This document shows, one piece after another, positions 50,991 to 55,528 of a DNA stretch of 64,000 bases. Made by a program: the position numbers and the translations under genes. Every line of letters begins with the position of its first letter. The stretch's first letter is position 1. The notes below the pieces were generated by a model. That model saw nothing but the letters and a program-made list of their open reading frames with translations. It did not search any database and had not been told where the DNA came from. The stretch comes from Kutzneria kofuensis (GTDB lineage Bacteria > Actinomycetota > Actinomycetes > Mycobacteriales > Pseudonocardiaceae), in NCBI RefSeq assembly GCF_014203355.1, contig NZ_JACHIR010000001.1:4528038-4592037 (forward strand), in the 5' to 3' direction.

Positions 50991-51008
50991 ATGGCCAACT
51001 TTGGCCAT
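50991..51008. promoter_or_regulatory. Perfect 18-bp palindrome
   Basis: ATGGCCAA-CT-TTGGCCAT, 53 bases before the earliest possible start of the SpoIIE-type gene. The two-base centre makes a protein-binding dyad more likely than an RNA hairpin. Confidence 0.5.
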
Positions 51009-51049: not shown

Positions 51050-51102
51050 CGTGCGGCTGGTTGCGTGACCAACCGGCTGGCAAGGGAATCGCGGGCGCTG
51101 TT

Positions 51103-52710
51103 GTGAGCACATCGGAAGAGCGTTCGAGGCGACTGGCCGACGGCGAATACGGCTCGCCGATGCTGGATGCGCCATCCCCGGTCATAGTCCCCTCCCCGAT
51201 CATTGCCGCGGGCTCGAACGGAAATCTGCTGGAGCTGGACGAGGTCGCTGACCTGGTGGCCTCCGCCGCCCGCACGGGTCTACCCCTGGACGACGGGGTG
51301 GCGTCTTGGCTTGCGGAGGCACGTCGGGCGGTCGCACGGCGGTCGGTCCGCGGGCGGATTGCCGGGCGCGGTTTCCCGGTGCACACGACCACGCGGGGCG
51401 ACACCGTGGCTTGGTGGCTGCTCGACGAAACCGCAGAGCAGCCGACCAAGCGACTGCTCGAGGTGGAGCGGGAACGCACGGCGTTCCTGGCCCGCGCGTC
51501 CAACCTGCTGTCGTCGATGAACCTCGACCGCTGTATGGAGGTGACGGCGCAGCTGGCGGCGGAGTGCCTTGGCGATGCCGCTGTGGTCATCCACCCGTCG
51601 GACGGAACCACGCTGGCCACGGTCAAGTGCGTTCGTGGCGGGCAAGTGGTTCGGGAGACGGTCGACGCCGACCCGACGTCGGTACCCGGCCTGGACGTCG
51701 CGCTGACGTGGTTCCCGCCGGTGACCTTGCGCTGGATCGAGGCCGCCGACGTGCCGGAGTGGATCGTGCCTGCTGGACTCGGCCCGATCGGGTCCGCCGT
51801 GGTGGTGCCGTTGCCCGGCCAGGGCATGCCTTCGGGCGCGTTGGTACTGCTCCGGAAGTCCACCCGCGCGGTGTTCAGTGAGAACGCGGAAGTGTTCGTC
51901 CGGTTGTTCGCCGGCCGGGTGGGCACGGCGATGGCGGTGGCTCGGCTTTACGCCGAGCAGGCGAGCATCACCCAGATCCTCGCGCGGGACCTGGTGCCGC
52001 CACAGCTGCACCACGTGGACGGCATCGAGTTCGCCGGCGGTTACCAGCCGTCCGCCGCGACCGATCGGGTCGGCGGCGACTTCTACGACCTGCACCCGGC
52101 GGATACGGCCGGTTGCGAGTCCTTCCTCGTCCTCGGTGACGTGTGTGGGAAAGGGCTCGAGGCCGCGGTCGTGACCGGGAAGATCCGCAACACGCTGCGC
52201 GCGTTGCTGCCGTTGGCGCACGATCATCAGCGGATCCTGGCGATGCTGAACAGTGCCCTGCTGAGTTCGCACGACACGCGGTTCGCGACGCTCGTGTTCG
52301 CCTCGGCCGTACGGGAGGGGCCTGACGTCCGGCTACGACTGACCAACGCCGGTCACCTGCCGCCGTTGATCGTGTGCAACGACGGGACGGTGACGGAAGC
52401 TCGTACCCGAGGCTGTCTCGTCGGCGTGTTGCCGGCGGTTCAAGCGAACACCGCTGTCGTCCGGCTGGCGCCTGGAGAGTCGTGCCTGCTGTACACCGAC
52501 GGCATCACGGAGGCGAAAGGCGGCCCGCTGGGCGACGCGTACTTCGGTGAGCGACGGTTGAAGGACGCGTTGGCCGAATGTGCCGGCCTGCCCAGTGAAG
52601 CGATCGTGGAACGCGTGCACATGCTTGCCGCGGAATGGATCGGTGACAACCAGCACGACGACATAGCTGTCGTCGCCATCACGGCGCCCAGGCAGCAGGG
52701 CACGCGATGA
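51103..52710 (+). CDS. SpoIIE-type PP2C phosphatase with GAF domain
   Basis: About 535 residues. A PAS-like N-terminal part (GRGFPVHTTTRGDTVAWWLL) is followed by a short coiled coil, a GAF domain (about 125-290) and a PP2C/SpoIIE domain (about 305-530). Metal-site residues are intact in DRVGGDFYDLH, LVLGDVCGKGLEAA, LLYTDGITEA and DDIAVVAI. Such enzymes dephosphorylate anti-anti-sigma factors in partner switching. The start is uncertain: this GTG, or TTG at 51061, neither with a good ribosome site. It overlaps the cobalamin protein gene by ATGA. Confidence 0.88.
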   Translation: MSTSEERSRRLADGEYGSPMLDAPSPVIVPSPIIAAGSNGNLLELDEVADLVASAARTGLPLDDGVASWLAEARRAVARRSVRGRIAGRGFPVHTTTRGDTVAWWLLDETAEQPTKRLLEVERERTAFLARASNLLSSMNLDRCMEVTAQLAAECLGDAAVVIHPSDGTTLATVKCVRGGQVVRETVDADPTSVPGLDVALTWFPPVTLRWIEAADVPEWIVPAGLGPIGSAVVVPLPGQGMPSGALVLLRKSTRAVFSENAEVFVRLFAGRVGTAMAVARLYAEQASITQILARDLVPPQLHHVDGIEFAGGYQPSAATDRVGGDFYDLHPADTAGCESFLVLGDVCGKGLEAAVVTGKIRNTLRALLPLAHDHQRILAMLNSALLSSHDTRFATLVFASAVREGPDVRLRLTNAGHLPPLIVCNDGTVTEARTRGCLVGVLPAVQANTAVVRLAPGESCLLYTDGITEAKGGPLGDAYFGERRLKDALAECAGLPSEAIVERVHMLAAEWIGDNQHDDIAVVAITAPRQQGTR

Positions 52711-53771
52711 CACCCGCCGATCGGCTCGACCGGTTGTGGCAGACGGTCCTGGCTGGTGACGAGCGCGCCGCGGTCGGTGCCGCCTTCGCCGCGCTGGACG
52801 ACGGCCTTGGCCTCGAGGACGTGCTGCTTGAGGTGATCGCCCCGATCCAGGCCAAGGTCGGGCTGGAGTGGGCGGCCAACCAGATCAGCGTGGCGCAAGA
52901 GCACGCGGCGACCGCGATCAACGGCCGAGTGATCGCCGCGCTGACCCGTCACTCGGCCGCTCGCGTCGAGCCACGACACGGCCGGATCACCGTGGCCTGC
53001 ATCGATGGCGAGTGGCACGCGCTGCCCGCGCGGCTGCTTTCGGAAGTGTTGCGGCTACGGGGATGGCAGGTGGACTTTCTCGGTGCCACGGTCCCGACCC
53101 AGCACCTGATCGCCCACCTGCGCCTGGCCGGGCCGGACGCGGTGGCCCTGTCCAGCTCGGTCGCGACCCGGTTGCCCACCGCGCACGCGACCATCATCGC
53201 CTGCCAGGCCGCGGGCATCCCGGTCTTCGCCGGTGGTGCGGCGTTCGGCGGCGACGGCCGGTACGCGCACATGTTCGGCGCCAACGTGTGGGCGCCGAAC
53301 GCGCGCCGAGCCGCCGACCTGCTGGCCGGTGGACTGCCGCGGCCGAAGCTTGCTCAGCCCCGCCAGCCGGTCGACGACCTGCCGCACCTGGCCGACCATG
53401 AGTACACGCTGGTCGCCCGGACTGCTCGGTCCCTGGTCAGGCAGACCATGGCTGACCTGATGGAACGGTTGCCGGCGATGAAGCGGTACACCAGCCAGCA
53501 ACTCGATCACACGGCCGCGGACATCGCCCACATCGTCGACTTCCTGGCCACCGCGCTCTACACGAACTCGCCGGAGCTGTTCGCCGGTTTCCTGCGCTGG
53601 ACCGCCGAGATCCTGATGGCGCGTGGCGTGCCCGGCCAGGTCCTGCTCCCGACCCTCGACGTCCTGGCCGCAGGACTCAAGGACGCCACCCGAGCGAGCC
53701 GGCTGCTCAAAGAGGTGCGTGCCGACCTCGACGACCGCTATCCCAACTGGTCGCGGCAACGGTTCAGGTAG
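52707..53771 (+). CDS. CarH-like cobalamin-binding protein without DNA-binding domain
   Basis: A 354-residue protein. Residues 5-85 match the four-helix cap of B12 photoreceptors, with W55, nine residues, E65-H66 (the Wx9EH motif of CarH/LitR). Residues 90-210 are the Rossmann B12 domain, with E102-x-H104 in place of the axial-His motif, SSSVATRL and GGAAFGGD. Residues 225-354 are a helical domain I do not recognise. There is no MerR helix-turn-helix. By analogy it may bind adenosylcobalamin and sense light. Coupling to the phosphatase suggests it controls that enzyme or a shared partner. Confidence 0.82.
   Translation: MTPADRLDRLWQTVLAGDERAAVGAAFAALDDGLGLEDVLLEVIAPIQAKVGLEWAANQISVAQEHAATAINGRVIAALTRHSAARVEPRHGRITVACIDGEWHALPARLLSEVLRLRGWQVDFLGATVPTQHLIAHLRLAGPDAVALSSSVATRLPTAHATIIACQAAGIPVFAGGAAFGGDGRYAHMFGANVWAPNARRAADLLAGGLPRPKLAQPRQPVDDLPHLADHEYTLVARTARSLVRQTMADLMERLPAMKRYTSQQLDHTAADIAHIVDFLATALYTNSPELFAGFLRWTAEILMARGVPGQVLLPTLDVLAAGLKDATRASRLLKEVRADLDDRYPNWSRQRFR

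Positions 53772-53896: not shown

Positions 53897-55528
<1,632 letters not shown>

Follow-up and report, generated by a model that had tools for sequence, protein, structure and literature searches.

Introduction

In photocobilins, light converts bound adenosylcobalamin (AdoCbl), and SasPcob of Saccharothrix syringae (PDB 8J2W in the dark, 8J2X in the light) passes from dimer to monomer (Zhang 2024, PMC10979010). In AbDPcob, a photocobilin (photoreceptor part PDB 8J2Y) is fused to a GGDEF cyclase, which is more than 10-fold more active in light, and both light-state AbPcob and holo-SasPcob activate an isolated diguanylate cyclase (DGC) domain in trans (PMC10979010). That paper calls the function of stand-alone photocobilins less clear, and its network analysis points to STAS, SpoIIE and PP2C proteins with which SasPcob might interact. 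Here, we describe a stand-alone photocobilin of Kutzneria kofuensis, whose gene overlaps that of a SpoIIE-type phosphatase within a 64,000-nucleotide stretch of the forward strand (contig NZ_JACHIR010000001.1, positions 4,528,038 to 4,592,037; hereafter the window, in whose coordinates positions are given), and compare the pair with its counterparts in other actinomycetes. We propose, with a probability of about 0.6, that the two proteins are a dedicated pair, in which a photocobilin binding AdoCbl and biliverdin (BV) and a PAS-GAF-PP2C phosphatase would pass light to STAS-dependent sigma factor control.

The other parts of such a pathway have described counterparts. In RsbU-RsbT and RsbP-RsbQ of Bacillus subtilis, as in the window, a PPM phosphatase with a sensor domain and a helical linker is accompanied by a separate partner; partner proteins are proposed to switch such enzymes through the linker, which dimerises the PP2C domains, and it is also proposed that cyclases and phosphatases can exchange sensor modules (PMC12143880), which fits the pairing of photocobilins with either kind of effector. 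The Bacillus partners are RsbT and an alpha/beta hydrolase, whereas the partner in the window is a B12/bilin photoreceptor, whose mode of control is drawn by analogy. Docking loops set the choice between STAS substrates (PMC11418112). Blue light enters the sigma-B pathway through LOV-STAS proteins, a route from light to partner switching like that proposed here (PMC4844311); however, these are flavin-binding fusions with STAS itself, while in the window a cobalamin/bilin sensor would act on the phosphatase. CarH/LitR, the AdoCbl-dependent light-responsive repressors, have a DNA-binding domain and no globin, and the window protein is the reverse. Photocobilins and the predicted STAS/SpoIIE link of SasPcob are already published (Zhang 2024, PMC10979010); new here is stronger evidence for the partner of the stand-alone members. 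No experimental test of a photocobilin-phosphatase pair appeared among the papers listed in the literature searched.

Results

The photocobilin gene (52707..53771, + strand, as are all features of the pair; ATG start, 354 aa) follows the SpoIIE/PP2C phosphatase gene (51103..52710; 535 aa from a GTG, an uncertain start, with a TTG at 51061 giving 549 aa), and its ATG lies over the phosphatase TGA in a four-base ATGA overlap (52707..52710). The photocobilin protein matches a solved photocobilin over its full length (E 3.9e-80); the structural alignment with SasPcob, which comes from a different organism, has 45% identity, with the same domain order and similar length. A cobalamin module and a globin domain share a single chain: a four-helix bundle (residues 7-79; 52725..52943) and a Rossmann B12-binding domain (93-206; 52983..53324), which Pfam detects as B12-binding_2 (7-79, 1.5e-13) and B12-binding (93-186, 5.9e-15) and beside which it finds nothing else, followed by a bilin-binding globin, or photoglobin, domain (226-345; 53382..53741). 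Photoglobins were reportedly described earlier, by Schneider in 2022.

All eight positions compared with SasPcob are kept. The adenosyl-pocket and dimer motif W55-x9-E65-H66 (52869..52904) aligns with W61, E71 and H72, and the lower-ligand motif E102-W-H104 (53010-53018) with E106 and H108, while the BV-site residues Asp270, Trp296 and His137 correspond to D272 (53520-53522) and W298 (53598-53600), both within the photoglobin domain, and to H133. AbDPcob has a His at the Asp270 position and binds BV weakly (PMC10979010), unlike the window protein, which keeps the Asp. Judging from these residues, the protein probably carries both vitamin B12 and a bile pigment, and since the genome contains one heme oxygenase gene and one gene of the CobA/CobO/BtuR family (cobalamin adenosyltransferases), both chromophores are plausible in this organism. 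Elsewhere in the genome (C1, near 4.818 Mb), the gene L010:991-2010 reads as a CarH/LitR-like MerR-B12 protein with WRHSGEGVEVEH and EEQH stretches, and may therefore encode another B12 light sensor.

A preliminary description of the locus, made from sequence, had proposed a CarH-like cobalamin photoreceptor with W55, E65, H66 and an ExH motif, lacking a DNA-binding domain, ending in a helical C-terminus of unknown nature and joined by an ATGA overlap to a GAF-PP2C phosphatase linked to partner switching. The cobalamin photoreceptor is borne out by sequence and fold comparisons, the motifs are correctly placed, Pfam finds no MerR-type domain, and the overlap is as described. Two assignments changed: the C-terminus is the known bilin-binding globin, and the family is that of the photocobilins, with a second chromophore site, rather than that of CarH. 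The GAF-PP2C architecture of the phosphatase holds, but a PAS-like domain ahead of the GAF had been overlooked. The coupling to a partner-switching type of phosphatase proved strongly conserved, both in the neighbourhoods and in the phosphatase tree presented below.

Neighbourhoods were surveyed in two sets of loci. The class sample comprised 394 genomes of the class Actinomycetes, including that of K. kofuensis, 64 of them with a photocobilin match at E ≤1e-20; its 68 regions represent every listed match outside the own genome, and a photocobilin gene was called in 66 (all except L088 and L091). The named set holds the best 80 of at least 518 confirmed loci and leans to close relatives. Because the sets are not independent (over 15,020 bases, L051 and L240 do not differ) but overlap, their counts must not be summed. 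Genes were called with a purpose-written program based on the G+C content of third codon positions, which may misplace starts and miscall small genes; it put the starts of the window's own pair later than those adopted here (row L109).

The gene immediately upstream, with the same orientation, is a SpoIIE gene in 55 of the 66 class-sample loci and in 78 of the best 80 named loci, and the two genes overlap by four bases in 33 of these 55 and 55 of these 78. Pfam SpoIIE was found in 55 of 64 scanned same-strand upstream proteins, the window's included. The named loci belong to Mycobacterium, Mycolicibacterium, Streptomyces, Saccharothrix, Amycolatopsis, Pseudonocardia, Nocardia, Nocardioides, Nonomuraea, Actinomadura, Actinoplanes and other genera. 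Chance is excluded for the window pair, because its photocobilin match is so strong and the same pair recurs in 78 of the best 80 named loci. By comparison, the genes at positions -2 and +2 of these 80 loci (85 non-identical proteins of 90-420 aa that bear no SpoIIE, STAS, RsbW or photocobilin label) have no common family, MarR_2 leading with nine.

The phosphatases that accompany photocobilins fall almost entirely on one branch. In a tree of SpoIIE domains with 54 linked rows (53 from the class sample and the window) and 29 unlinked ones, among them 8 of the 11 other SpoIIE proteins over the cut-off in the own genome, linkage changes only twice, against a mean of 24.0 for shuffled labels, none of 500 shuffles being as low. 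Left out of the tree are two of 55 linked pairs, whose photocobilins are fragmentary, and three of 32 unlinked proteins, whose domains are short or undetected; the profile that found the unlinked proteins was seeded on linked ones. The sole unlinked row amid the linked ones, L075, is a SpoIIE protein encoded one small gene away from its photocobilin. Moreover, sensor and phosphatase diverge in step: in the four genomes with two pairs, the paralogue identities of photocobilin and phosphatase are 0.45/0.46, 0.39/0.40, 0.36/0.35 and 0.41/0.38, and over 54 pairs their distances correlate with r 0.92, to which shared genome ancestry contributes.

The photochemical residues are largely kept in the SpoIIE-linked members: of 53 photocobilins, W55 is present in 52, E65 and H66 in all 53, H104 and W298 in 52 each, E102 in 51 (Asp in the other two), and H133 and D272 in 41 each. 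The preliminary description had held that homologous pairs whose B12 protein lacks the W/E/H residues would speak against it; one such case occurs among the 53 (L084, lacking W55 and H104).

The phosphatase has the order PAS-helix-GAF-helix-PP2C. Its PAS-like domain (residues 33-106; 51199..51420) emerges from the order of strands and helices in an AlphaFold 2 (AF2) model; the window protein itself gives no Pfam PAS match, and among the 52 members of set A5 PAS_4 was matched in five and PAS in two. The GAF domain (141-276; 51523..51930) matches Pfam GAF at 0.0014, under the curated cut-off, and is matched in 35 of the 52 members. In the AF2 secondary structure a long helix (260-296; 51880..51990) joins it to the catalytic PP2C (SpoIIE) domain (306-530; 52018..52692) and is a candidate signalling linker, for which RsbU and RsbP set a precedent (PMC12143880). 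The catalytic domain scores above the Pfam SpoIIE cut-off and has the PP2C fold with its metal-binding Asp residues. Of the best 80 named photocobilins, 59 entered the alignments supplied to AF2, and of the 76 phosphatases extracted, 51 did. A Foldseek search with the phosphatase model returned bacteriophytochromes from rank 22 onwards (E ~1e-8, TM ~0.23-0.25, rmsd mostly 18-27 Å), which we take as generic PAS-GAF similarity of the model.

A STAS gene is a frequent third member of the unit. It comes next downstream, or past a second photocobilin gene, in 27 of 65 class-sample loci with a gene called there, and next downstream in 56 of 79 such loci among the best named ones; of 27 small downstream genes on the same strand that were selected for scanning, 23 gave a match to Pfam STAS. 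A profile seeded with 13 of these 27 downstream proteins was used for the operon STAS family; among 81 of its proteins (from both, overlapping, locus sets), 77 have Ser and one has Thr at the phosphorylation site. The survey of STAS genes suggested in the preliminary description thus found them adjoining in many relatives but not beside the window pair. In a relative of the same family (G249, L053) the STAS gene is in place. In two loci, L064 and L069 (G161 and G016), the SpoIIE and STAS genes enclose two tandem photocobilin genes, which may make a unit with two inputs.

The K. kofuensis genome (10.4 Mb) has 13 SpoIIE matches (12 over the cut-off), 21 STAS matches and 52 HATPase_c_2 matches, many of the last probably histidine kinases. 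When its STAS proteins were ranked with the operon profile, L124, L113 and L126 came out on top; because their scores are close and L124 adjoins another SpoIIE gene, none was singled out as the cognate one. A STAS remnant downstream of the pair was also considered and dropped, since a profile of the 81 operon STAS proteins had no match at E ≤1 among the open stretches (≥40 aa) in the six frames of the window.

Discussion

That the sensor-phosphatase pairing is kept across many actinomycetes suggests a route by which light reaches stress-type gene control. We infer that the phosphatase is under light control. In the dark, photocobilin molecules loaded with AdoCbl would be arranged head to tail as dimers; the Co-C bond would break in green light, or in red light absorbed through the bilin, and monomers exposing a new surface would be released. 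The photocobilin would then act in trans on the phosphatase through a putative contact, like RsbT on RsbU and RsbQ on RsbP, and control would pass via the sensor domains and the helical linker, by which the PP2C domains are dimerised. Once active, the phosphatase would dephosphorylate a STAS anti-anti-sigma factor, its presumed target, which would then tie up an RsbW-type anti-sigma kinase and thereby free an alternative sigma factor. In many relatives this STAS protein would be the product of the third gene of the unit, while K. kofuensis would need an unlinked one. We postulate that light turns the phosphatase on; this sign is the least certain step, because SasPcob without BV had the opposite effect on the cyclase, activating in the dark and inhibiting in the light (PMC10979010).

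Besides this reversal, several observations weigh against the proposed pathway. No STAS gene stands beside the window pair, none occurs in the window at E ≤1, and the nearest matches in the genome lie ~1.8 Mb upstream and ~2.7 Mb downstream on the same contig. The sole HATPase_c_2 match of the window, ~7.7 kb downstream, has an E-value of 4.5e-5, below the family cut-off, and is more likely a histidine kinase. The deep branches of the phosphatase tree are weak: the main split has a FastTree support of 0.207, and a quick IQ-TREE search without bootstrap leaves the deep forks open and carries a long-branch warning. Hence, with weak deep branches and long branches meeting, a single origin of the linked phosphatases is likely rather than proved. 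L084 lacks W298 in addition to W55 and H104 yet keeps its phosphatase; we read it as a degenerate or light-blind sensor. The bilin Asp is missing in 12 of the 53 SpoIIE-linked photocobilins, and 11 of these 12 keep the cobalamin motif, as if bilin use had been lost and cobalamin use kept. These 11 members (L085, L087, L089, L090, L092, L094, L096, L097, L099, L101 and L104), in eight of which His133 is replaced by Arg, form a candidate B12-only subfamily.

Effectors other than SpoIIE also have to be considered. Eleven of the 66 class-sample photocobilins have no SpoIIE gene directly upstream, and 14 photocobilins from 11 genomes outside the class, a set restricted to matches that cover almost the entire model, lack one within the regions fetched for them, two of which (L278 and L285) reach less than 1 kb upstream. 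Thus, the photocobilin is not tied to a SpoIIE effector. The ten same-strand upstream genes scanned outside the class encode GGDEF proteins (four), a response regulator with EAL (one), ABM-family proteins (two), a DUF389 protein (one) and nothing recognisable (two); inside the class, GGDEF is encoded upstream in L093, L100 and L106. On this account the photocobilin looks like a general light module, for which phosphatase control would be the branch taken in Actinomycetes.

Among the alternatives, the one that survives best would make the photocobilin a reporter of AdoCbl (or bilin or heme) supply, with the apo and AdoCbl-bound forms setting the phosphatase and photolysis secondary; we consider it unlikely, since the linked members keep, almost without exception, W55, E65 and H66, residues with which SasPcob and CarH build their dimer and their light-labile adenosyl pocket. 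In its favour we counted that many of the named carrier genera are presumably soil actinomycetes. The AbDPcob cyclase is indeed lowered in activity by AdoCbl alone, compared with the apo form (PMC10979010), but the bilin Asp, which has no evident use in B12 sensing, persists in 41 of 53 members.

A more doubtful alternative still is that the photocobilin is merely co-transcribed and acts elsewhere, for instance on a diguanylate cyclase in trans, the phosphatase being a mere neighbour. The GGDEF genes upstream of photocobilins in 4 of 10 scanned cases outside the class and in three loci inside it are in line with this, as is the activation of a foreign cyclase by SasPcob (PMC10979010); however, such a neighbour would hardly explain why the linked SpoIIE proteins are nearly confined to one branch, why paralogues diverge in step in all four two-pair genomes and why a STAS gene so often completes the unit. 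That the photocobilin is a methyltransferase-type corrinoid carrier without a signalling role is very improbable: its B12 domains do have the fold of MetH and MtaC-type proteins, but the best NCBIfam match is CarH (NF052513, 47 bits against a cut-off of 400) with the methyltransferase corrinoid families lower and all below cut-off, the full-length photocobilin match includes the photochemical residues, and the -2/+2 genes share no methyltransferase family except a DNA-repair type in 2 of 85.

Returning to the dedicated light-responsive pair, we tentatively extend it to the class: in Actinomycetes, the stand-alone photocobilin may be the on/off switch of its own PAS-GAF-PP2C subfamily, feeding green and red light into sigma factor partner switching as a separable B12/bilin partner, and in K. 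kofuensis, where the STAS target would be unlinked, a single phosphatase under light control could reach STAS proteins encoded far away. Where a network analysis had inferred partners, the survey finds a well-defined unit that is widely conserved and has a phosphatase subfamily of its own. Many relatives add a neighbouring STAS gene whose product has its phosphorylation site, and the unit could be reconstituted from three proteins; possibly, it could also supply a protein phosphatase controlled by green and red light for optogenetics.

Additional observations

The gene upstream of the L106 photocobilin (L106:3233-8137) encodes a multidomain CheB-CheR-PAS-GGDEF-EAL protein of 1634 aa and shares four bases with the photocobilin gene. 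Genes of the ABM family overlap photocobilin genes or lie next to them at L075:8007-8294, L277:7493-7828 and L278:2-634 and in one member of set A2; the nearest solved relatives of the L075 and L277 proteins are heme-degrading monooxygenases of the HmoB/MhuD type. The catalytic Asn of these enzymes, at the position that we assume for it, appears replaced in both proteins; they are not claimed as heme degraders, and a supply of bilin by these genes is only a guess.

A perfect inverted repeat, ATGGCCAA-CT-TTGGCCAT, occupies positions 50991-51008, ~95 bases 5' of the phosphatase start. It was not taken as an operator, since, with up to two mismatches allowed, the genome contains it once, just as it does a backwards-pattern control, and it is absent from the other 133 upstream regions, which come from relatives. 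A shared sigma-B-like promoter was likewise set aside: in the 134 upstream regions of both locus sets and the window, the pattern occurred in 13, against 12 on the reverse strand, and a stricter pattern in none. Matches also occur on plasmids, in eight records, five of them from Streptomyces. On the 3' side of the window pair, positions 53951-55528 hold a gene of the FAD-binding aromatic-ring hydroxylase type, which likely starts at the ATG at 54101, leaving a gap of ~330 bases from the photocobilin stop.

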